Positions 1,993 to 11,835 of a stretch of DNA of 13,107 bases are shown here, in pieces. Positions within the stretch are counted from its first letter, which is position 1. Each line of letters begins with the position of its first letter. Position numbers and translations under genes: made by a program. The notes beneath the pieces were generated by a model, which was given only the letters and a program-made list of their open reading frames with translations, ran no database searches and had not been told where the DNA came from. Source of the stretch: Betaproteobacteria bacterium (GTDB lineage Bacteria; Pseudomonadota; Gammaproteobacteria; Burkholderiales; SG8-41); assembly GCA_029863175.1 (NCBI GenBank), contig JAOTVX010000065.1, positions 1-13,107 of the forward strand, written 5' to 3'.

Positions 1993-3012
1993 TCATACCG
2001 TTGCGACAGGAGTGACCGGAGAGCCCGCGGCGCCGGGCAGCCGCAACGGCGGCGCGGTGAGCAGGAAGCGCCTGCGACCGTTCTCCCGCAGCCAGCCGGC
2101 GAGTTCCGTGAGGTACCACAGCTCGCCCAGGTGGATGCCGAGCTTGAACAAGCAATGCTCGTGCAGCGGTAGCCCCGGCCCGCGGTGGGGCAACCGCGGA
2201 TCGGTGCCCAGCGTGGACGAACGCTCGACCGCGAGATTGTCCGCGGCGATCGCCGCGACGCCGGTGTCGGCGATCCATTCCAGCAGTCGCTTATCGTAGC
2301 CGTCGAGCACAGCGCACTTCGTCCTGATCGAGTTGTCGAGCTTGCCGTCGGCTTCGCGAATGAGCTGACCCAGGCCGGTATGGAGGCAGAGGATGTCCCC
2401 TTTCTCTACGGTCACCGAGTCCGCTTTCAGGACGCGCTCGAGCAACTCCCAGGTAACCTCGACGCGCTCGTCCTTGAAATGATGGCGAAGGTCGATCATG
2501 ACACCGCGCCCCTGCACGCCGGTCTCGGCCATGGCCGCGACCGAAAGATTGATCGCGCCGAGCTGTCCTTGCGTGCCGCGGCCTTCGCGGTCGACGATCT
2601 GGAATCCGTTGTAGAAGACCTTCTCCGCGACGCCGTCGTCGTCCGCGTCGAAAAGCGAGCCCTTGTGCGCGAAGCCGTCCCAGTGCGTCGAGTACTGGGT
2701 GTAGAGCATGACGGCCTCGTCGGAGCCGACGTCGGTGTGTCGTGGATCGGCTTTCTCCATCGCCAGGTTGAAATAGAGCAAGTCGTCCCGCATCACCGGA
2801 TGGAACACGGGCGGCTTGCGGAAAGCGTTGAGGACGCTGCCTCCCGGCCGGTCGAGGGGGTGGCTCAGGCAGAACGCACGGCCGGTGTTTACCTCCTTGA
2901 GCGCCTGCAACCGGCCTTCATCGGTTAACAGGTTCATCCGGCCGCGCTGGTCGTCGTTGCCAAACTCTCCCCAGCTCGAGCCTTCCGGGCGCTTCTTCCA
3001 GCGTTTCGTCAT
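1993..3012 (-). CDS. Cyclase family protein (kynurenine formamidase-like metal hydrolase)
   Basis: This protein belongs to the cyclase superfamily, which includes kynurenine formamidase and isatin hydrolase. These are metal-dependent enzymes that open amide or lactam bonds, usually in the cytoplasm. From the start at 3012 it has 339 residues. The diagnostic metal-site motif appears as STHWDGFAH, with H110, D112 and H116 matching the family pattern [GS]THxDxxxH. The longer subfamily (about 330-350 residues) is mostly uncharacterised, so the substrate cannot be named. I chose ATG 3012, preceded at 9 nt by AGGA, over an upstream in-frame start at 3069 because the upstream stretch reads into repeat DNA. 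It is divergent from the MAPEG gene at 3242, with a 13-bp repeat array between them. No tryptophan-catabolism partners (kynurenine or anthranilate genes) are visible. Confidence 0.85.
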   Translation of the reverse strand: MTKRWKKRPEGSSWGEFGNDDQRGRMNLLTDEGRLQALKEVNTGRAFCLSHPLDRPGGSVLNAFRKPPVFHPVMRDDLLYFNLAMEKADPRHTDVGSDEAVMLYTQYSTHWDGFAHKGSLFDADDDGVAEKVFYNGFQIVDREGRGTQGQLGAINLSVAAMAETGVQGRGVMIDLRHHFKDERVEVTWELLERVLKADSVTVEKGDILCLHTGLGQLIREADGKLDNSIRTKCAVLDGYDKRLLEWIADTGVAAIAADNLAVERSSTLGTDPRLPHRGPGLPLHEHCLFKLGIHLGELWYLTELAGWLRENGRRRFLLTAPPLRLPGAAGSPVTPVATV

Positions 3013-3071
3013 GATCTTCAATCCTGCCAAGAATTGCGATTGTACCGGCCAATCATATCCGCCACACATAC

Positions 3072-3215
3072 TGGTGATGACAAATGGTGATGATTAGTGG
3101 TGATGAAAAATGGTGATGTACAATCGTCTTGCTGTGATCGGTTCTCGTACCAGCTTGCATCACCAGGTACCATCACCAGTATGCATCACCAGTATGCATC
3201 ACCAGTAGTCATCAC
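3072..3215. repeat. 13-bp dyad array 1, in the divergent cyclase/MAPEG gap
   Basis: TGGTGATG occurs at 3072, 3085, 3098 and 3111, exactly 13 bp apart. Its reverse complement CATCACCA occurs at 3158, 3171, 3184 and 3197, with a partial copy at 3210, again exactly 13 bp apart. The 39-bp centre can hold two degenerate units (near 3124 and 3145), which would leave the same ~13-bp core as the other loci. It lies 59 bp upstream of the cyclase start and 26 bp upstream of the MAPEG start, so it occupies most of the shared promoter region. Confidence 0.9.
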
Positions 3216-3241
3216 TTTTTGGTCCGAAGAGAGAATACACG

Positions 3242-3634
3242 ATGGTCATTACACCACTATATGCCGGATTGCTTGCCCTCTGGTTCTTCGTCCTGGGAGC
3301 GCGCGTCATTGACCAGCGCCGCCGCGGCAAGGTAAGTCTCGGCGACGGCGGCAATCCGCAGCTGCAGCGGGCGATCCGAGGACATGCCAACTTTTCGGAA
3401 TACGTGCCGCTTGCGCTGCTGCTCCTCGCAATCCTCGAACTGTCCCGTTTCCCGCTCTACGTGCTGCACGGCCTCGGCGCGACGCTGCTTGCCGCCCGGC
3501 TGCTGCATGGCTACGCGCTTTCCTTCACGGGGCACTTTCGGTTCGGCCGCGTGGCCGGTGCAGCGCTCACCTTTCTTGTGCTCATCGTCGCCGGGGTGTT
3601 GTGCCTCTACCAGGCCTATCTGAGCATCCGATAG
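3242..3634 (+). CDS. MAPEG family integral membrane protein
   Basis: MAPEG proteins (membrane-associated proteins in eicosanoid and glutathione metabolism) are small four-helix membrane proteins. Some are glutathione transferases, but bacterial members often have no assigned substrate. This one has 130 residues, typical for the family. Hydrophobic segments are visible at about 5-20, 55-70, 74-90 and 105-125. The conserved stretch RGHANFSEYVPLALLLLAI (from about residue 46) carries the R, N, E and P positions of the family. The ATG at 3242 is preceded by a weak purine-rich site (GAAGAGAG). The gene stands alone, with 13-bp dyad arrays on both sides (3072-3215 and 3665-3772). The family call is firm and the biochemical role is unknown. 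Confidence 0.9.
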   Translation: MVITPLYAGLLALWFFVLGARVIDQRRRGKVSLGDGGNPQLQRAIRGHANFSEYVPLALLLLAILELSRFPLYVLHGLGATLLAARLLHGYALSFTGHFRFGRVAGAALTFLVLIVAGVLCLYQAYLSIR

Positions 3635-3664
3635 GCGATGGACGATGGGTAATGGGCCTGGACC

Positions 3665-3772
3665 CAGTGATCGGAACTGGTGATGCGAGGTGGTGATGAT
3701 TACTGGTGATGAGCGGCGTGCAGTACATCACCACTTTTCATCAATATCATCCATCACAATCATTCCTCACCA
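3665..3772. repeat. 13-bp dyad array 2, downstream of the MAPEG gene
   Basis: TGGTGATG occurs at 3678, 3691 and 3704, with a 6-of-8 match in register at 3665. The inverted half has CATCACCA at 3726 and decayed copies in exact 13-bp register at 3739 (CATCAATA), 3752 (CATCACAA) and 3765 (CCTCACCA). The central gap is 14 bp (3712-3725). Phase is kept while units decay, which suggests the spacing was set when the array arose. Just before it, 3636-3656 reads as three heptamer-like units (CGATGGA, CGATGGG, TAATGGG). Confidence 0.85.
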
Positions 3773-3777
3773 ACATC

Positions 3778-4005
3778 TTCCTGGGCGGCCTTGGCGTCGT
3801 GGCGGTTCATCAAATTCCGTGAATCGTGAATAGTGACTCGTGAATCGTGAATCGAAGTTTTCTTGGCGTGCTTGGCGTCTTGGCGGTTCAATTCCGATCT
3901 GGTTTCCCTCCGCGTCTCCGTGGTTCAATTCTTGTTTTCCGTTGTGTCCTTCGTGTCCTCTGTGTCCATGCTGTAAAGCTCTTGTCTTCCTCGGCGTTCT
4001 CGGCG
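3778..4005. repeat. Mixed intergenic repeats: nonamers flanking a GTGAATC heptamer array
   Basis: This gap before the patatin gene shows no credible coding frame. At 3819-3853 there are five perfect-register heptamers (GTGAATC, GTGAATA, GTGACTC, GTGAATC, GTGAATC). Copies of a 9-bp-period repeat lie on both sides: TTGGCGTCGTGGCGGTTCA near 3791-3809 and TTGGCGTGCTTGGCGTCTTG near 3862-3881. A second nonamer run (GTGTCCTTC, GTGTCCTCT, GTGTCCATG) lies at about 3944-3970. The rest of the gap up to 4103 shows no further recognisable structure. Confidence 0.75.
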
Positions 4006-4103
4006 GCTGTGTTCCTGTTTTACTCTCGACTTCCGAGTCCCACCTTCTGACTTCATCCCTCAGGTAGCGCCGCCCCGTCACCCATTCCGGGGTAACATGA
4101 GTC

Positions 4104-4994
4104 ATGGCTCAACCGATAACGATTTCCCTCGTTCTTGGTGCCGGCGGCGCCCGCGGTCTGGCGCACATCGGCGTGATTCAATGGCTGACCGATAACGGCT
4201 ACGTCATACGCTCGATTGCGGGCTCCTCCATGGGCGCGCTCGTGGGCGGAATCTATGCCACCGGCAAGCTCGAAGTTTATGCCGAGTGGGTGTCGGCGCT
4301 CGAGCGCATGGACGTCGTGCGGCTGCTCGACCCATCCTTTGGCCGCGCCGGCTTGTTCAAGGGTGAGCGCATCATCAGCGTGCTGCGCGAGTTAATCGGC
4401 GAGTGCCTAATTGAAGATTTGCCGATCTCATTCACCGCGGTCGCGACCGATCTCGGCTCCGGCAAGGAAGTCTGGCTGCGCCAAGGGAAGCTGTTCGATG
4501 CCATCCGCGCCTCGATTTCGCTCCCCTTGATCTTCACGCCCTTCAACGACGGCGGCCGGCAACTGCTCGACGGCGGGCTGGTCAATCCGATCCCGATCGC
4601 CCCTACGCTCAATGACACGACTGATCTCACCATCGCTGTGAATCTGAGCGGTCCCGAGGAGGCGAGGCCGCCTCCACCTCCGGCGCCGTCGAGTCCCGGT
4701 ATCTATGCCTATCGCGAGCGCATCAGGACATTCATCGAGAGCCTCGGCCTCGCGCGCACGCCCGATGCACCCTCGGTCGGCTTGACCGCGATCATACTGG
4801 CGTCGATGGAAACGATGCAGAACACGATCGCGCGCCTCAAGCTCGCTGCCTACTCCCCGGACGTGACGGTCGACATCCCGAGCAATGCATGTCTGTTTCA
4901 CGAGTTTTGGCGCGCGGAAGAGCTGATCGAGCTGGGTTACGATCACACAGCGCGCGCTTTTGGGAAAACGGGTCGGAACTCCGGGAACCAGTGA
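4104..4994 (+). CDS. Patatin-like phospholipase family protein (RssA-like)
   Basis: This is a predicted serine-aspartate dyad acyl hydrolase acting on phospholipid or neutral lipid esters, of 296 residues. The oxyanion-hole motif GAGGARG lies at about residues 12-18. The nucleophile elbow is GSSMG with S42, and the dyad aspartate is D156 in DGGLVNP. All the core patatin signatures are therefore intact. The order and length match the bacterial RssA/YchK group rather than type III secretion effectors such as ExoU. A proline run (PPPPP, about 189-193) marks a linker before a helical C-terminus. No signal peptide is evident, so a cytoplasmic or membrane-peripheral location is likely. The ribosome site before ATG 4104 is weak (GGGGTAA). 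The gene stands alone between repeat-filled gaps. The substrate cannot be told from sequence. Confidence 0.9.
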   Translation: MAQPITISLVLGAGGARGLAHIGVIQWLTDNGYVIRSIAGSSMGALVGGIYATGKLEVYAEWVSALERMDVVRLLDPSFGRAGLFKGERIISVLRELIGECLIEDLPISFTAVATDLGSGKEVWLRQGKLFDAIRASISLPLIFTPFNDGGRQLLDGGLVNPIPIAPTLNDTTDLTIAVNLSGPEEARPPPPPAPSSPGIYAYRERIRTFIESLGLARTPDAPSVGLTAIILASMETMQNTIARLKLAAYSPDVTVDIPSNACLFHEFWRAEELIELGYDHTARAFGKTGRNSGNQ

Positions 4995-5059
4995 CCGGCA
5001 AAGCGGAAGGCGGAAGGATAACTAACCGTTTTCCCGTATGCCATCCTTAGCGTTACCTC

Positions 5060-5130
5060 CACGCCTTTGGGGTCTGGCTTTTTGATTATTTTTCCTTCGC
5101 GTCCTTGCGGGCTTCGCGGTGAGGCTTTTC
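5060..5130. repeat. Nonamer-type degenerate repeat downstream of the patatin gene
   Basis: Degenerate CCTTCGCGTCCTTGCGGGC and GCGGTGAGGCTTTTC stretches resemble those at 460-495, 541-567 and 5339-5375. The 995-5426 part of this intergenic region, that is 4995-5426, is made of this repeat, the hairpin element at 5121-5255, a heptamer array at 5273-5335 and another nonamer copy at 5339-5375. No gene is seen. Confidence 0.6.
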
Positions 5131-5255
5131 TCTTCCTTGGCGCCCATCCTCACCCCCGCCCCTCTCCCAAGCTGAGAGGGGAGGCTTGAGCCTTCCCTTC
5201 TCCATTCGGGAGAAGGGAAGGGATGAGGGGATGGCGGCCTTGGCGGTAAGGCTTT
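5121..5255 (+). repeat. 135-bp hairpin-rich repeat, copy 1
   Basis: This is almost identical to the reverse complement of 10057-10190, with only a handful of differences by eye, including one extra G in copy 2. It contains two hairpins. CCCCTCTC (5159-5166) pairs with GAGAGGGG (5174-5181). A perfect 13-bp stem, CCTTCCCTTCTCC (5191-5203), pairs with its complement at 5209-5221 around ATTCG. Both outer edges are GCGGTGAGG/GCGGTAAGG-type nonamer repeat sequence. The core resembles widespread proteobacterial intergenic repeats containing CCCTCTCCC. Confidence 0.9.
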
Positions 5256-5272
5256 TTAGGTGTTCTAGGACC

Positions 5273-5335
5273 CATCACCCATCATTCATCACCCATCACT
5301 CATCACCCATCACTCATCACCCATCACTCAACACC
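5273..5335 (+). repeat. CATCACC heptamer array, nine units
   Basis: This is the longest heptamer array in the window. Its units alternate mainly CATCACC and CATCACT, with one CATCATT and a final CAACACC, all in strict 7-bp register. It lies about 90 bp upstream of the CoxG-like gene and directly after copy 1 of the hairpin repeat. The strict alternation of two unit types implies a 14-bp higher-order unit and growth by duplication of pairs. Confidence 0.9.
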
Positions 5336-5426
5336 CATCGCGGAAATTGGGCGCCCCTTGCGGTGAAGCTTTTTCGTCAGCCTGCTACTATGCTGCCCGC
5401 GGTTCACTTTCTCGCGCGTCCACATC

Positions 5427-5882
5427 ATGATCGAAGTCAGCGAACGGATCGAGGTGCCCGCACCCACGAGCACGGTGTGGGCGTTGTTGTCCGATCCGCG
5501 CGCCGTCGTCGACTGTGTGCCGGGGGCGGCATTGGGGGACCAGCACGAGGACGGGTCGTTTGATGCGACGTTGACGGTCAAATTCGGGCCGGCGAAGGTC
5601 ACCTTTCGCGCGCAGGTTGCATTGGAGCTGGATGAAGCGGCGATGGCCGGGCGCGTGACCTCCAAGGGCAAGGACAAGCAAGGTGGCACGCGTTTCACCG
5701 CGACGATGAGCTTCAAGGTCGTGGAGCAGGCTGAAGCCCCGGGCTCGGCAATCCCGATCGACGCCGAGGTCGACATAGGCGGCCGCCTTGCTTCGCTGGT
5801 GGAAGGCGGCGCAGGGCTGGTGGTGAAGCGGATGACGTCGGAATTCTCGGAGCGGCTCGCCGCCCGCTGCCGGCCTGCTTAG
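5427..5882 (+). CDS. CoxG-like SRPBCC family protein (carbon monoxide dehydrogenase subunit G family)
   Basis: This 151-residue protein has the CoxG (PF06240-type) pattern of the SRPBCC fold. It opens with IEVPAPTSTVWALLSDP and then VDCVPG, the family's N-terminal signature, followed by alternating strand-like segments (FDATLTVKFGPAKVTFRAQV) and a C-terminal helix (about 120-147). CoxG proteins are associated with aerobic molybdenum CO dehydrogenase and with handling of hydrophobic ligands or membrane attachment. Longer members carry a hydrophobic C-terminal anchor that is missing here. No coxM, coxS or coxL gene lies in the window, so a CO-oxidation role is not supported and it is best seen as an orphan member. 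No clear ribosome site precedes ATG 5427, but the start fits the family. It is the first gene of a four-gene co-directional run. The next array begins 1 bp after its stop. Confidence 0.85.
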   Translation: MIEVSERIEVPAPTSTVWALLSDPRAVVDCVPGAALGDQHEDGSFDATLTVKFGPAKVTFRAQVALELDEAAMAGRVTSKGKDKQGGTRFTATMSFKVVEQAEAPGSAIPIDAEVDIGGRLASLVEGGAGLVVKRMTSEFSERLAARCRPA

Positions 5883-5883
5883 A

Positions 5884-5991
5884 AGGTGATGATAAATGGT
5901 GATGAATAATGGTGATGAAAGATGGTGATCTGCGAGTGGTTTCCCATCACTAGTACTCATCACCATTTCTCATCACCAGTAATCATCACCA
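5884..5991. repeat. 13-bp dyad array 3, between the CoxG-like and ThDP genes
   Basis: This is the cleanest copy. Left units lie at 5884 (AGGTGATG), 5897, 5910 and 5923 (TGGTGATC). Right units lie at 5945 (CATCACTA), 5958, 5971 and 5984. Every step is exactly 13 bp and the central gap is 14 bp (5931-5944). It starts 1 bp after the CoxG-like stop codon and ends 25 bp before the ThDP start, filling almost the whole 134-bp gap. As RNA it could fold into one long imperfect hairpin with four 8-9 bp paired blocks. Confidence 0.92.
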
Positions 5992-6003
5992 GTAAAGTTT
6001 TTG

Positions 6004-6009
6004 AGGGAG
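6004..6009 (+). promoter_or_regulatory. Shine-Dalgarno of the ThDP enzyme gene
   Basis: AGGGAG lies 7 nt before ATG 6017, within a purine-rich run (GAGGGAGAGGAAGC). It begins 12 bp after the end of dyad array 3, so a hairpin formed by the array would stand directly upstream of the ribosome site without covering it. Confidence 0.6.
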
Positions 6010-6016
6010 AGGAAGC

Positions 6017-7669
6017 ATGAAGGTATATCAAAGGCTGGCGAGCGCATTCATCGCGGAGGGCACGACGCACCTCTTCGGCATCATGGGCGACGGCAACATG
6101 TACTGGATGCACGAGTTGGACAAGCTCGGCGGCGTTCAGATGCTCGAGGTGCGCCATGAAGGCGCGGGGCTCGGGATGGCCGACGGCTGGGCGCGGGTGA
6201 CGCGCACGCCCGGCATTGCCACCGCGACCTGCGGACCGGGCGTCTCCCAGCTTGCGACCGCATTGCTCACCGCGAGCCGCGCCGAGTCGCCGCTCGTGGC
6301 GTTCGTGGGCGAGTTTCCCTCGAACGACGACGAATACAACCAACGGCTTGACCAGGCGCGGTTCGCGGCGGGCTGCGAGACCGCATTCTTCCGGGTGACC
6401 TCGCCGGACACCGCGGACGACACGGTGCGCAAGGCCTTCTACACGGCGCGGCTTGAATCGCGTCCCGTCATGCTGAGCGCGCCGATGGATGTTCAGCAGA
6501 AGAATTTCGACGACGACGATCCGTACGAGCCGTCGACCGCTCTGCTGCCGAAAGGGGTCCTTCATCCCGATCCGGCAGAGCTGGAAAAAGCCGCCGACAT
6601 CGTCGCCGCCAGCAAGCATCCCGTGATCATCGTCGGACGCGGGGCGAAGTGGTCGGGTGCGGGCGACGCGATCCGGAAGCTCGGCAATCGAATCGGCGCG
6701 CTGATCGCAACCTCGTTGATGGTGAAGGGCTGGCTGGGAGAAGAGGATTACCACGCCGGAATTTCGGGGACCTACGGCACGCGCACGTCCATGCAGCTCT
6801 TCGAGGAAGCGGATTGCGTCATCGCCGTCGGCGCCAGCATGAACCGCTACACGACCGAGCACGGTTATCTCTTTCCCAACGCGCGCTTCGTGCATATCGA
6901 CCGGAAGCCGCACCTGGTCATGAGTGGCGGCCGCGCCGCCGACTGTTATCTCCAGGCCGATGGGCGCACGGGAGCGGAGGCGCTCGAAAGCGCGCTTGCG
7001 AAGCGTTCGGTGAAGAATACCGGCTATCGTACGCCCGAGGTCAAAAAGCAGCTCGCGGGCAAGCACATTGATCGGACGGAATTTCCGCTCGACCCGAACA
7101 CGGTTGATCCGCGCGAGGTCTGCCTCGCGCTGGACGAGATGATCCCTGCGGAGATCAACGTGATCACGGGCAGCGGAGCGACCGCGGGCTTCTCGAACAT
7201 GCTATTCAACCGTCCGCGCTCGCTGGTGCTTGCCGGCCATTTCTTCGGCTGTATCGGGCAAATGCTGCCCGCGGCGATGGGCGCGGTGGTGGCTCAGGGC
7301 AACAAGCCGACCGTTCTCGTCGACGGCGACGCCAGCATCATGATGCACATCGCGGAATTCGAGACGGCAGTGCGCTACGGGATGCCACTATTGGTCGTCT
7401 GTATGGATAACGAGGCGCTCGGCTCGGAGTACTACAAGCTCGACGCGCACAAGATGAAGTCGGCGCTCGCCACGATCTCCATGCCGGACTTGGGGGCCGT
7501 CGGCAGGGCCTTCGGCGGCCGGGGCGCAATGGTGCGCAGCATGGACGAGCTGCGCGCTGCGGCCGAAGAGTGGCTGGCCAAGCCCGGCCCCATGATGATC
7601 GACGCGCGGATCTCGCGCAGCGTCGTGACGCTGCCGTATCGGCGGATACACTACGGCTGCGATGAGTGA
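6017..7669 (+). CDS. Thiamine diphosphate-dependent enzyme, acetolactate synthase-like
   Basis: This 550-residue protein has the three-domain layout of the acetolactate synthase / pyruvate oxidase superfamily: a PYR domain (about 1-170), a central domain (about 185-330) and a PP domain (about 365-540). The PYR-domain activating glutamate is E48 in EVRHEGAG. The ThDP/metal motif is VDGDAS (D436-D438) followed by N465 in MDNEALGSEYY, a 27-residue spacing typical of the GDG...N motif. Such enzymes act on 2-keto acids or acyl-CoA donors, but the specificity (acetolactate synthase, decarboxylase, oxidase or benzaldehyde lyase-like) cannot be assigned. The lack of an adjacent ilvN small subunit argues against biosynthetic IlvB. 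It lies between the CoxG-like gene (134 bp away) and a lipoprotein gene. A 9-bp-stem hairpin overlaps its stop codon. The start is supported by AGGGAG at 7 nt. Confidence 0.9.
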   Translation: MKVYQRLASAFIAEGTTHLFGIMGDGNMYWMHELDKLGGVQMLEVRHEGAGLGMADGWARVTRTPGIATATCGPGVSQLATALLTASRAESPLVAFVGEFPSNDDEYNQRLDQARFAAGCETAFFRVTSPDTADDTVRKAFYTARLESRPVMLSAPMDVQQKNFDDDDPYEPSTALLPKGVLHPDPAELEKAADIVAASKHPVIIVGRGAKWSGAGDAIRKLGNRIGALIATSLMVKGWLGEEDYHAGISGTYGTRTSMQLFEEADCVIAVGASMNRYTTEHGYLFPNARFVHIDRKPHLVMSGGRAADCYLQADGRTGAEALESALAKRSVKNTGYRTPEVKKQLAGKHIDRTEFPLDPNTVDPREVCLALDEMIPAEINVITGSGATAGFSNMLFNRPRSLVLAGHFFGCIGQMLPAAMGAVVAQGNKPTVLVDGDASIMMHIAEFETAVRYGMPLLVVCMDNEALGSEYYKLDAHKMKSALATISMPDLGAVGRAFGGRGAMVRSMDELRAAAEEWLAKPGPMMIDARISRSVVTLPYRRIHYGCDE

Positions 7670-7688
7670 CCCGGCTAGACCGGGTCAC
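7666..7688 (+). terminator. Strong hairpin overlapping the ThDP gene stop codon
   Basis: GTGACCCGG (7666-7674) pairs perfectly with CCGGGTCAC (7680-7688) around the 5-nt loop CTAGA. The stop TGA (7667-7669) is inside the first arm. No T-tract follows, so it may be a rho-independent-like terminator without a tail, an mRNA 3'-end stabiliser or a pause site. The 13-bp dyad array 4 starts 10 bp later. Confidence 0.45.
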
Positions 7689-7698
7689 AGGGAGGTAC

Positions 7699-7805
7699 TG
7701 GTGACGATTACTGGTGACGGGAACTGGTGATGAGTGCTGGTGATGGAAACCTCTTGTATATCACCACTTTTCATAACTATTTTTCATCTCCATTAATCAT
7801 TACCA
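7699..7805. repeat. 13-bp dyad array 4, between the ThDP and DUF1080 genes
   Basis: Left units lie at 7699 and 7712 (TGGTGACG) and at 7725 and 7738 (TGGTGATG). Right units lie at 7759 (TATCACCA), 7772 (CATAACTA), 7785 (CATCTCCA) and 7798 (CATTACCA). All steps are 13 bp and the central gap is 13 bp. The right half is more decayed than the left. One further perfect CATCACCA at 7818-7825 is out of the 13-bp phase. It starts 29 bp after the ThDP stop codon. Confidence 0.88.
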
Positions 7806-7835
7806 GTTAGCTTGGATCATCACCATCATTCACCA

Positions 7836-7975
7836 GCATTCTGCGGGGCCGACCGAAGAGACAACGAGTCACCATTACCGGGCATGGTTGTGCTTCAGAT
7901 TCCCGGGTGTCTTGACGGCCGGGCGCGGGGGAGCCATGCTGCTTGGAGCAATTGGCAGTCCGTATCGTCATCAAC
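7836..7975. other. Non-repeat leader upstream of the DUF1080 lipoprotein gene
   Basis: Unlike the other gaps in this gene run, this one has about 140 bp of non-repeat sequence between array 4 and the ribosome site, so it is the most likely place for an internal promoter. A TTGACG at 7912-7917 is the only promoter-like hexamer I noticed. The matching position 17 bp downstream (CATGCT) is poor, so I do not call a promoter. Confidence 0.3.
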
Positions 7976-7984
7976 AAAGGAGGT
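7976..7984 (+). promoter_or_regulatory. Near-perfect Shine-Dalgarno of the DUF1080 lipoprotein gene
   Basis: AAAGGAGGT, fully complementary to the canonical 16S rRNA 3' end, lies 7 nt before ATG 7992. It decides this start over the open frame that extends upstream into array DNA, and predicts strong translation initiation. Confidence 0.85.
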
Positions 7985-7991
7985 CGTTACG

Positions 7992-8621
7992 ATGAAACGC
8001 TTGTCTCTTGCGGCGAGCCTGCTTGCGCTCACGTTGGCTGTCTTCGGCTGTGCGCAAATGGAATCTATGGGAGACTGGTTCAGTACGCAGTGGGATTCTA
8101 TAGGAGGCGGGGTCACGCTGATCGACGGCGACAAAGGCCTGGAAAACTGGAACCGTGTCGGCGAGGCTAATTGGAGTGCTGGGGACGGGGTCATCATGGC
8201 GGACAAGAGAACCGGCAAGAACCCCGGCTACCTGGTCTCCAAGAAAACCTACACGGACTTCCAGCTGAAGATCGAGTTCTGGGCCAGCCACGATTCCAAC
8301 AGCGGTATCTTCATGCGCTGCGCGGATCCCGAAAGGATCACGGACAGGAGTTGCTACGAGGCCAACATCTTCGACACGTTCAGGGATCAGAAGTATGCGA
8401 CGGGAAGCATCGTCCGTCACGCCCCGGTGGTGGTCCCGATCAAGGCGGGCGGCAAGTGGAACACGTACGAGATCACGGCCCGAGGGCCGAACCTGGTCGT
8501 CGTACTAAACGGCACCAAGACTACGGAGCTCAACCACAGCCAGTTTGCCAGTGGGCCGTTCGCGCTGCAGTATGGCCAGGGCATCGTGAAGTTCCGCAAA
8601 GTACAGATCAAGGAGCTGTAG
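7992..8621 (+). CDS. DUF1080 (3-keto-disaccharide hydrolase-like) lipoprotein
   Basis: This 209-residue secreted protein has a lipoprotein signal peptide: MKR, then a hydrophobic stretch, and a lipobox-like AVFGC with the acylated cysteine at C20. The mature part is a single DUF1080 / 3-keto-disaccharide hydrolase-type jelly-roll domain (about 40-209). It is recognisable by DGDKGLENWNRVGEANW near its start, FQLKIEFWASHDSNSGIFMR in the middle, KWNTYEITARGPNLVVVLNG and the closing GIVKFRKVQIKEL. Family members bind or cleave glycans or 3-keto-glycosides, but many proteobacterial ones have no proven substrate. No other sugar-metabolism gene is adjacent. The residue after the cysteine is alanine, so outer-membrane sorting is expected. 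The start is set by AAAGGAGGT. Dyad arrays 4 and 5 lie on either side. Confidence 0.88.
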   Translation: MKRLSLAASLLALTLAVFGCAQMESMGDWFSTQWDSIGGGVTLIDGDKGLENWNRVGEANWSAGDGVIMADKRTGKNPGYLVSKKTYTDFQLKIEFWASHDSNSGIFMRCADPERITDRSCYEANIFDTFRDQKYATGSIVRHAPVVVPIKAGGKWNTYEITARGPNLVVVLNGTKTTELNHSQFASGPFALQYGQGIVKFRKVQIKEL

Positions 8622-8649
8622 CCGGACGCGCGGGGGCGCCGGCCGCAGG

Positions 8650-8757
8650 TGGTGATGAAACCTGGTTATGAATGATGGTGATAAGTACTGGTGATGAAAA
8701 GCAGGGCGTACATCACCATGTCTCATCACTATTTATCATCACCATTTGTCGTCACCA
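8650..8757. repeat. 13-bp dyad array 5, between the DUF1080 and cinA genes
   Basis: Left units lie at 8650 (TGGTGATG), 8663 (TGGTTATG), 8676 (TGGTGATA) and 8689 (TGGTGATG). Right units lie at 8711 (CATCACCA), 8724 (CATCACTA), 8737 (CATCACCA) and 8750 (CGTCACCA). All steps are 13 bp and the central gap is 14 bp (8697-8710). It starts 28 bp after the DUF1080 stop and ends 14 bp before the cinA start, filling the gap and probably overlapping the cinA ribosome-loading region. Confidence 0.92.
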
Positions 8758-8771
8758 CTAGGCGAAGCTGA

Positions 8772-10046
8772 ATGCGTATCGAAGTCATCTGCACCGGCGA
8801 CGAGGTTCTCACGGGCAAGATCGTCAACACCAACTTCAGCTTCATCACGCAGAAGCTGGAGGACTTCGGACTCTCGGTGAAGTGGGAGACGACGGTCGGC
8901 GACGACCGGGAGGATCTATTGCTGGCATTCAGGCTGGCCGGCGAGCGCGCCGACGCGGTCATCGTCAACGGCGGACTCGGGCCCACGGTTGATGACCTGT
9001 CCCAGGAGATCGCCGCGAAGGCCGCGGGCGTCGAGCTCGTTCTCTCCGAGGAATGGCTGACAAAGATGCAGGAGTACTTCGCGCGCCGCAGCCGCGTGAT
9101 GCCGCCCAACAATCGCAAGCAGGCCATGTTGCCCGCCGGCGCCGAGGTCCTCGACAACCCCATTGGCACCGCCTGCGGTTTCGCGGTGGACATCGGCAAG
9201 GCGCGGTTCTTCTTCACGCCAGGCGTGCCGCGTGAGCTGCGCCGCATGCTCGAGGAGCAGATTATCCCGCGACTGCTCAAAAAGACCGGCCTGCAGGTGG
9301 CGATCTATCTCAAGCGCTTTCACTCCTATGGCATCGGCGAATCCCACGCCGATACGCTGCTCGCGGGCGTGGCAGAGCTCGTGCCCGACGGCAGCGTGAA
9401 GCTCGGCTTCCGTGCGCATTATCCCCAGCTCGAGACCAAGCTCACAGTACGTGGTCGCGATATGGACGATATTCGCAAAAAGCTCGCGCCGGTCGAACAG
9501 GAAGTGCGCAAGCGCCTGGGCAACTTCATCCTGGCGGAAGACAATCAAACGCTCGAGGGTGTCGTCCTCGAGGCGCTGAAAAGCCGTCAAGCTACACTGA
9601 CCGTCGTGGAGATGTTCACGAGCGGGCAGATCGCTGGACGGATCGGGCACCTGCCGGGCGCTGAGGCGGTGTTTCGCCAGGGCATCGTAGCGCGCGACCT
9701 GGGTGAAGCGTGCGCTGCGGTCGGGCTTGAACGGGGGGCCGTGCTGGGCGGCATCACGCGTGAGACGGCCGAAGCCGTGGCGCGCGCCGCGCAAGGCCAC
9801 ACGGGATCAACGCATGCGCTGGCCGTGCTGATCGACGTCGACGAAGGCGCGGACAAGCTCGAGTTCGGAGGTACCATTTGCCTCGCGATCGCAACCGAGA
9901 ACAACGTCGCCTCGCGCCGCAGCCGCGTGGTCGGGGGGCGCGACTGGGTGCGCCTCGGCGCGACGGAGATGGGCCTGGACTGCCTGCGGCGCTATCTTCA
10001 GGGACTGCCCGTCTACGAGCGAATCGACTTTGAGAAAGTCGAGTGA
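8772..10046 (+). CDS. cinA: CinA family protein with degenerate C-terminal deamidase domain
   Basis: This 424-residue protein has normal two-domain CinA length. The N-terminal MoCF_biosynth-like (COG1058) domain, about 1-170, is well kept: CTGDEVLTGKIVNTN, VNGGLGPTVDDLS and FFFTPGVPREL are hallmarks. In characterised CinA it is an ADP-ribose pyrophosphatase. The C-terminal domain (about 262-412) aligns with PncC-type NMN deamidase, but the active-site motif ESCTGG reads EMFTSG, so the catalytic serine position is M281. The family's YSNEAK region reads RDLGEA, replacing the tyrosine with R308 and the lysine with A313. The GIAGP-type glycine loop is also lost (LIDVDEGAD). NMN deamidase activity is therefore unlikely, while pyrophosphatase activity remains plausible. 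There is no strong ribosome site before ATG 8772, and dyad array 5 ends 14 bp upstream. The next repeat element begins 10 bp after its stop. Confidence 0.88.
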   Translation: MRIEVICTGDEVLTGKIVNTNFSFITQKLEDFGLSVKWETTVGDDREDLLLAFRLAGERADAVIVNGGLGPTVDDLSQEIAAKAAGVELVLSEEWLTKMQEYFARRSRVMPPNNRKQAMLPAGAEVLDNPIGTACGFAVDIGKARFFFTPGVPRELRRMLEEQIIPRLLKKTGLQVAIYLKRFHSYGIGESHADTLLAGVAELVPDGSVKLGFRAHYPQLETKLTVRGRDMDDIRKKLAPVEQEVRKRLGNFILAEDNQTLEGVVLEALKSRQATLTVVEMFTSGQIAGRIGHLPGAEAVFRQGIVARDLGEACAAVGLERGAVLGGITRETAEAVARAAQGHTGSTHALAVLIDVDEGADKLEFGGTICLAIATENNVASRRSRVVGGRDWVRLGATEMGLDCLRRYLQGLPVYERIDFEKVE

Positions 10047-10056
10047 CGTGTGACGA

Positions 10057-10190
10057 AAAGCCTTACCGCCAAGGGCGCCATCCCCTCATCCCTTCCCCTT
10101 CTCCCGAATGGAGAAGGGAAGGCTCAAGCCTCCCCTCTCAGCTTGGGAGAGGGGCGGGGGTGAGGATGGACGCCAAGGAAAAGAAAAGCT
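10057..10190 (-). repeat. 135-bp hairpin-rich repeat, copy 2 (inverted)
   Basis: This is the reverse complement of 5121-5255 with only a few changes, including one extra base in the G run of the long hairpin. It begins 10 bp after the cinA stop, so its two strong stems could also serve as the 3' end of the four-gene transcript. Together with copy 1 it forms an inverted pair around 5256-10056. Confidence 0.9.
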
Positions 10191-10240
10191 TTACCGCGGA
10201 GGACGCAAAGGACGCAAAGGACGCAAAGGGAACAATAATC
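10185..10240 (+). repeat. Nonamer repeat, GGACGCAAA type
   Basis: AGCTTTACCGCGGAGGACG is followed by consecutive 9-bp units reading GGACGCAAA three times. This is the reverse complement type of the TTTGCGTCC/CTTGGCGTC repeats elsewhere. It lies in the gap between the converging cinA and CoA-transferase genes, and the sequence from 10241 to 10318 shows nothing else recognisable. Confidence 0.75.
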
Positions 10241-11563: not shown

Positions 11564-11573
11564 GTTGTTCTCC

Positions 11574-11608
11574 GTGAATCGTGAAACGTGAAACGTGAAT
11601 CGTAAAAC
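11574..11608. repeat. GTGAATC/GTGAAAC heptamer array abutting the CoA-transferase ribosome site
   Basis: Five plus-strand units in strict register read GTGAATC, GTGAAAC, GTGAAAC, GTGAATC, GTAAAAC. On the coding (minus) strand the array ends exactly where the GGAG Shine-Dalgarno (11570-11573) begins. It is the same family as 3819-3853. Confidence 0.85.
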
Positions 11609-11621
11609 CAGAGATATTTAA

Positions 11622-11835
11622 CTGCAGATAAACGCCGATAAACACAGATTCGCAAATATACAAAAAACACAGAACACGGAACGCAGAACCCTGAACCGCT
11701 CTTTTTAGCTGCCGATGGACGCCGATACACGCCGATCAATGATCGTGAATAGAATTCTTGGCGAGCTTGGCGTCCTGGCGGTTCAGTCTTGCTTTTGTCT
11801 CTCTCGGCGCCTCCGCGGTTCATTGTTCTTCGCCT
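11622..11835. repeat. Patchwork of decamer, heptamer and nonamer repeats between the CoA-transferase and MFS genes
   Basis: No gene is seen. 11628-11647 holds two 10-bp units (GATAAACGCC, GATAAACACA) with decayed edges. 11667-11697 holds heptamers (ACACAGA, ACACGGA, ACGCAGA, ACCCTGA). 11712-11741 holds decamers (GCCGATGGAC, GCCGATACAC, GCCGATCAAT). About 11756-11783 matches the CTTGGCGxxx / GGCGGTTCA nonamer family, and CGGCGCCTCCGCGGTTCA follows near 11804-11822. The family and the period change several times within 200 bp. Confidence 0.7.

Follow-up and report, generated by a model that had tools for sequence, protein, structure and literature searches.

The window analysed here is the whole 13,107-nt stretch of contig JAOTVX010000065.1 from a betaproteobacterium. 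Its genes are ordinary chromosomal ones: cyclase-like, MAPEG, patatin-like, CoxG-like, thiamine-pyrophosphate enzyme, 3-keto-disaccharide hydrolase-like, CinA, CoA-transferase, MFS transporter and lytic transglycosylase genes. The window also holds five palindromic arrays, each of about four plus four units and all in exact 13-bp steps. They belong to a family of intergenic elements of about 100 bp, in which two arrays mirror each other, both built from a 13-bp unit whose core is GTGAYG(A). The family has many copies and is confined to one clade, a small group of environmental betaproteobacteria, and its members look like a previously undescribed kind of boundary signal.

Five mirrored arrays and their unit

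Our detector places the arrays at 3072-3217, 3678-3772, 5884-5991, 7699-7805 and 8650-8757, whereas in 500 windows simulated with a first-order Markov model it found no such element. The positions and the exact 13-bp phase in the original prediction, which had been made from the sequence letters, are thus borne out. So are its centre lengths of 13-14 bp, with 39 bp in locus 1: between the 8-bp cores, the centres of loci 1 to 5 measure 39, 14, 14, 13 and 14 bp. In loci 1, 3, 4 and 5 the longest inverted-repeat arms measure 45-50 bp and are 71-80% complementary; in locus 2 they measure 32 bp and are 72% complementary.

Locus 1 lies between the divergent cyclase-like and MAPEG genes. Its forward arm (3072..3118, + strand) has four TGGTGATG units in 13-bp steps, and its reverse arm (3158..3217, - strand) has four CATCACCA units and one partial unit. 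The first intact unit of locus 2 is 43 bp behind the MAPEG gene; the forward arm (3665..3711, +) has three intact units and a decayed one, CAGTGATC, which if counted takes the locus back to 3665, and the four units of the reverse arm (3726..3772, -) are decayed in part. Locus 3 begins 1 bp past the stop of the CoxG-like gene with a four-unit forward arm (5884..5930, +), and its four-unit reverse arm (5945..5991, -) lies 25 bp ahead of the thiamine-pyrophosphate enzyme gene. The forward arm of locus 4 (7699..7745, +) follows 29 bp past the latter gene and has four units, two of which are TGGTGACG; the four units of the reverse arm (7759..7805, -) are decayed in part. Loci 4 and 5 are separated by the 3-keto-disaccharide hydrolase-like gene (7992..8621, +; Pfam PF06439, E 4e-36). 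Locus 5 has a four-unit forward arm (8650..8696, +) 28 bp past the preceding gene and a four-unit reverse arm (8711..8757, -) 14 bp ahead of the CinA-like gene.

The unit consensus is TGGTGATGANNAN, an 8-bp core and a 5-bp A-rich spacer. A single consensus had been proposed for the full unit; the spacers, however, follow no one consensus. A CRISPR array is rejected, as originally predicted, given the 8-bp cores, the 5-bp A-rich spacers and the mirrored arms; CRISPR arrays have unique spacers of regular size between repeats of 24-48 bp (repeat length as described in PMC3733652).

Two detectors together gave a merged set of 82 elements: 52 in the Betaproteobacteria SG8_41 metagenome-assembled genome (MAG; G001), which is the nearest genome to the window, 13 in G008, five in G054, five in the window, three in G007, two in G006 and two in G075. 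The commonest form has 4+4 units (21 of the 82). The arm order is always TGGTGATG…CATCACCA: at a period of 13, 71 palindromes in 1.33 Mb from eight sources run forward-then-reverse and none reverse-then-forward. This order was no part of how the stretches were selected, and the result is free of circularity. The same 1.33 Mb contains no palindromes at periods of 6, 7, 11, 12 or 15 and one at 14, a comparison that is partly circular because the stretches were fetched as matches to 13-bp single-arm patterns; for the same selection, densities in them are not genome averages.

Outer units agree with TGGTGATG in 92-97% at positions 3-8 and in 80-84% at positions 1-2, values that are inflated because detection demands good cores. 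The innermost unit is often altered to TGGTGAT[AG][AG]G, with A at position 8 in 47% (outer units, 3%) and G at position 10 in 67% (outer units, 33%). There are two arm types. In most elements ANTAC spacers are commoner in one arm and AAAAA/AATGA-like spacers in the other, and C at position 13 is anti-correlated between the arms (rho -0.57, 57 elements, p=4e-6). Spacers of neighbouring units within an arm are more similar than chance (p=0.004). The centres are variable, with a faint consensus at their edges, and self-folding of the loops is weakly above that of shuffles (-4.0 vs -3.4 kcal/mol, 68 of 82 loops, p=0.015). A T-rich bias in the flanks ends about three bases outside the last core.

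Other repeats occur in the same window. Plain, non-palindromic 7-bp tandem repeats of CATCACCCATCACT lie at 5271-5332, with single units near 509-530 and 10333; they hold an ATCAC core, as the 13-bp units do, and are a possible source of the latter. Short-period intergenic repeats of the GTGAATC, CGCCGATAAACACAGAT and GGCGTCTTGGCGG types are found at 3818-3854, 3841-3927, 5031-5155, 10168-10218, 11572-11649 and 11616-11750, and these families have many matches in SG8_41 too. At 7668-7690, between the thiamine-pyrophosphate enzyme gene and locus 4, is a perfect 9-bp hairpin, GTGACCCGG-CTAGA-CCGGGTCAC, with a similar one in SG8_41.

Distribution and placement behind genes

The arrays extend well past the five gaps of the window. 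SG8_41 has 81 exact unit pairs and none in the reversed control; its thiamine-pyrophosphate enzyme is 90% identical to that of the window over residues 4-516, and the five longest DNA matches between the two are 81-85% identical. A pattern of two forward units and then one reverse unit, searched in 84,980 species genomes, returned 19 stretches, 16 of which are in the SG8_41 MAG. The remaining three are one each in NC_groundwater_328, UBA6910 and a Rubripirellula MAG, and the last has no units past the three in the search pattern. Within the SG8_41 family the exact unit pair is present in 3 of 74 genomes and a looser three-unit pattern, GTGAYGA-N6, in 10 of 74, with 65 matches in G001, 63 in G008 and none in 64 genomes. 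A dispersed intergenic family had been predicted, to be refuted if the five gaps held the only copies; the copies elsewhere agree with it. The detector confirmed palindromes in five of the ten (G001, G006, G007, G008 and G054) and also in G075, which is outside the family list. G057 has a single chain and no palindrome in one 8.6-kb stretch, and G015 has plain tandem copies only, again in one stretch; for G055, G056 and G058 the palindrome check covered a single unrelated locus, in G055. Of 399 genomes sampled evenly across the order, three match, and two of the three were already in the family list.

A phage or plasmid origin is rejected. In viral contigs the exact two-sided pattern had no matches, and the looser pattern matched six stretches, none palindromic by the detector. 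A plasmid search with window positions 2800-9000 returned four records, with only short matches in the first 211 bases of the query, within the cyclase-like gene. One viral contig (L276, 2917-3144) carries a 13-bp direct repeat of 18 copies with ATCACGGCAT-type units, which is non-palindromic and lies in AT-rich sequence. The window has no Rfam match at the gathering score, and a known RNA family is rejected. The claim that no named element has this layout stands for Rfam, scanned with the window, and among the papers listed in searches of an open-licence library.

In most cases the elements are directly behind stop codons. The neighbouring stop codon lies at a median distance of 9 nt (n=90), and nine of the 90 stops are the element's own first TGA. 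Gap lengths were compared for the 51 of 57 elements of SG8_41 and the window that were placed in gaps. Once the element is subtracted, convergent gene pairs have a median gap of 15 bp (n=15) vs 121 bp without an element (n=90; p=6e-5), where the rank test, unlike the medians, excludes element-free gaps at or below -50 bp (3 of the 90 convergent ones). For codirectional pairs the leftover gap is 29 vs 87 bp in one orientation (p=0.004); it does not differ significantly in the other orientation (47 vs 76 bp, p=0.18) or between divergent genes (74 vs 132 bp, p=0.44). Convergent gaps hold 15 of the 50 elements with both neighbours called, vs 86 of 525 gene pairs. The orientation of the arms relative to transcription has no significant preference (20 vs 10, two ties, p=0.10).

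Genes were called with a simple open reading frame (ORF) script. No ORF extends past both ends of any of the 82 elements; of the 70 measured 5' ends of downstream genes, 21 as called overlap the element, and by a midpoint test 9 of 52 elements are inside an ORF. We take these overlaps as start codons called too far upstream.

The arms lack the T-tract that follows the hairpin of an intrinsic terminator. Six T in eight bases within 20 nt behind the arms occur in 1.8% of 114 flanks, and in 4.3% of control intergenic 20-mers (188 drawn). Short perfect hairpins are found in 8.8% of the 114 flanks vs 1.0% in shuffles, and a few elements adjoin an ordinary stem-loop.

Pairing, mobility and variation between genomes

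Dispersed intergenic palindromes are common, but what they do is disputed, since inverted repeats are expected alike from pairing, from protein binding and from mobility. In the present family the cores are repeated; therefore selection on sequence can be separated from selection on pairing. The original prediction offered two uses for the arrays, a long hairpin or cruciform and the binding of a multimeric protein. The results below do not support the hairpin as the conserving force, and we favour the protein site.

If pairing were conserved, own arms should fit each other best. Among 52 elements own arms fold at -49.7 kcal/mol and arms swapped among elements at -51.6 kcal/mol, so own pairing is no better and slightly worse, and this test of compensation between the arms, of the kind that the original prediction had proposed, is negative. 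Core changes in codirectional gaps are symmetric between the 5' and 3' arms (G>A 36/36, T>C 16/18), with no overall G.U bias. At single positions, given as raw counts, G8>A occurs 23 times in the 5' arm and 16 in the 3' arm, opposite to what RNA wobble predicts.

The facing 5-bp spacers match less than those of swapped arms (0.413 vs 0.501, p<0.0002) in the 43 elements, out of the 57 in SG8_41 and the window, that have at least two spacers per arm. The set from other genomes gives the same result (0.426 vs 0.521, 18 of 25 elements, p<0.0002). Part of this mismatch stems from the two arm types, and it persists after elements are oriented by arm type (p=0.010 and 0.003). A test of register only gave p=0.002 in the first set. 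Positions 10-11 show the mismatch most strongly (p=0.0004 and 0.0002); they were picked after viewing the SG8_41 data, with the second genome set as replication. Among facing spacers G.U pairs number 37 vs 24 for A.C (p=0.12, not significant). The facing spacers point to selection, or a bias, against pairing, and we read the cores as probably conserved as sequences within a palindrome that is kept interrupted.

These results bear on the first alternative, a REP-like (repetitive extragenic palindromic) RNA element. Behind the stop codon the transcript would fold into a hairpin whose 8-bp stems alternate with 5x5 internal loops; the hairpin would shield the 3' end, slow RNA polymerase or aid Rho-dependent termination, the loops preventing cleavage by RNase III. 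Placement behind stops and in convergent gaps would suit it: PMC3733652 describes REPs as mostly behind genes, between codirectional or convergent genes, and PMC1590033 describes intergenic stem-loops in general as concentrated at 3' ends. The predicted folding is strong, at -0.42 kcal/mol per nt over 57 elements. In the 3' arm, rich in C and poor in G, YC dimers recur at 13-nt intervals, which by inspection fits the 9-13 nt spacing counted in the Rho descriptors of PMC9160355. However, this arm differs from a Rho utilisation site in that it is predicted to pair with the forward arm, so that pairing would hide a rut-like arm, and in that the element is alike on both strands. The arm swap, the symmetry of the summed changes, the spacer G.U count and the rarity of T-tracts all tell against an RNA hairpin. 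We reject a hairpin maintained by compensatory change, and the wider RNA reading is unlikely, though it is the best placed of the alternatives.

The second alternative is a selfish or neutral repeat, an old mobile or slippage-grown sequence without host function that survives behind genes where insertion is harmless. It would account for the restriction to one clade and for the very uneven copy number given above, and 11 of 46 shared junctions carry an element in just one genome. The likeness of neighbouring spacers within an arm may point to local tandem duplication, and the faint centre-edge consensus suggests common descent of the elements. Against this, flank repeats of 3-6 bp in 57 elements all stay within the 95% limit from permutations (maximum over offsets); the elements thus lack the target site duplication of a miniature inverted-repeat transposable element, and a fixed target is rejected. 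A linked RAYT-like (REP-associated tyrosine) transposase, which the original prediction had proposed looking for, is rejected for the loci checked. The Y1_Tnp domain (PF01797) is encoded in 16 of 17 genomes, array bearers and non-bearers alike, and none of 30 loci examined among 64 PF01797 matches, including both in SG8_41, has a phased array within at most about 1.5 kb of flank per side. No two element centres are alike beyond short matches, and recent copying is rejected. The block change in core sequence described below also runs counter to a selfish repeat, which we consider slightly less probable than an RNA hairpin.

Variation between genomes can be followed at shared gene junctions. Locus 1 is present at the orthologous place in SG8_41, and the junction of locus 3 has an array in G008. 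At 46 conserved gene junctions, elements or lone arrays are in both genomes at 7, in one at 11 and in neither at 28 (p=0.010, for junction pairs that are not fully independent). Certain gaps behave as if they were repeat-prone: junctions L110/L234, L123/L251 and L133/L257 carry the 13-bp palindromic element in one of the two genomes and tandem repeats of another family in the other. From the thiamine-pyrophosphate enzyme gene to the CinA gene, the window contains two elements that flank the hydrolase gene, whereas SG8_41, in the alignment to G001:C128, lacks the gene at this place and has one hybrid element; the outer flanks of the latter match those of locus 4 to its left and of locus 5 to its right. 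That the elements are recombination sites, scattered homology for the gain and loss of gene cassettes, is highly improbable from this single case, since any dispersed repeat can recombine and a by-product is more likely.

The unit itself differs between lineages. SG8_41 and the window have GTGATG, whereas in G008, G054, G006 and G007 it is mostly GTGACG (CGTCAC on the reverse strand of these relatives). At four of seven shared junctions the unit state switches nearly as a block: 6 T vs 7 C for G001/G054, 6 T and 1 C vs 7 C for G001/G008, 7 T vs 6 C for window/G008, and 4 T vs 6 C and 1 T for G001/G006. Since the genomes have similar GC content (0.62-0.67), general base drift does not explain this change. 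Gene conversion would need to hit the 8-bp cores while sparing spacers and centres, and thus selection via a shared trans-acting factor is the simpler explanation.

A putative docking array and its known counterparts

We tentatively suggest, at less than even confidence, that each element is a mirrored docking array for a putative DNA-binding protein, a two-way boundary at gene 3' ends whose spacers are kept mismatched. The cores would be binding sites of a sequence-specific protein that loads onto each arm as a multimer, and the bound array would mark or block the point between two neighbouring genes at which transcription ends. Because the arms face opposite ways, a bound array would be the same to RNA polymerase from either side. 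Since mirrored arrays make a long palindrome, selection would keep the facing 5-bp spacers mismatched, which may limit extrusion of a hairpin or cruciform. In each lineage the unit sequence would drift jointly with the specificity of the protein, as between GTGATG and GTGACG. In favour of this model we count the strict arm order, the placement behind stops with short leftover convergent gaps, the symmetric core changes as a sign of constraint on the DNA, the mismatch of facing spacers, the sharing of junctions across genomes, and the block change of unit state among elements whose centres have only short matches in common. The repeated cores, their placement and the interrupted palindrome are direct observations; from them we infer the protein, its boundary effect and the reason for the interruption. 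A broader version is somewhat more doubtful: that the arrays are chromosome-wide, that their cores co-evolve with one polymerising protein of the clade and mark gene ends both ways, and that selection actively holds the palindrome broken every 8 bp so as to avoid loss as an unstable hairpin.

Several observations weigh against a docking array. The strict forward-then-reverse order is not required by a sequence-specific protein alone, and some elements lie between divergent genes, where there is no 3' end (locus 1; 6 of 52 in G001). The SG8_41 copy of locus 1 is partly decayed, and the detectors demand good cores, so that decayed copies escape them. T7>C, also a raw count, occurs 5 times in the 5' arm and 12 in the 3' arm, as RNA wobble predicts and in support of an RNA hairpin. 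The register-only spacer test is not significant in the second genome set (p=0.13), and common ancestry of arm pairs could add to the spacer mismatch. With full palindromes only, the junction comparison is not significant (both 3, one 13, neither 30, p=0.30). Two of the seven shared junctions are mixed, a second G001/G008 junction (6 T vs 3 T and 5 C) and G001/G075 on both sides, and one, G001/window, has T in both. Taken together, the RNA hairpin and the selfish repeat have about an even chance, somewhat above that of the docking array.

Operators of the omega/ParG type, bound by ribbon-helix-helix repressors, are tandem ATCAC-core sites, direct or inverted, occupied by a polymerising protein. 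Such sites are 7 bp long and contiguous, at a few plasmid promoters, whereas the present arrays have a 13-bp period and occupy many chromosomal gaps. REPs, bacterial interspersed mosaic elements (BIMEs) and REPINs (GTAG and CGTC families) are like the arrays in being short dispersed palindromic repeats in gaps, mainly behind genes, as PMC3733652 describes them. A REP is one stem-loop of 20-40 bp with its own 5-13 bp stem, whereas by inspection the 13-bp unit has no stem of even 5 bp and the palindrome exists only between two arrays. GTAG REPs flank a RAYT (Y1_Tnp) gene, whereas no array does so at the 30 PF01797 loci checked. The analogy drawn in the original prediction therefore holds for placement and palindromic character, and fails for a stem in each unit and for the RAYT link. 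The TAACTGA heptamers of Beggiatoaceae resemble the arrays as short tandem repeats that are specific to a lineage and recur in many gaps; PMC4679880 describes 169 direct sets and one indirect, most of them immediately ahead of start codons, whereas the arrays have a 13-bp rather than a 7-bp unit, are mirrored and lie behind stops.

If a protein is behind the arrays, they would represent a multi-site boundary system in a bacterial clade and a natural record of a site and its protein changing together. They would also provide a simple anti-complementarity test that could be applied to other palindromic repeats.

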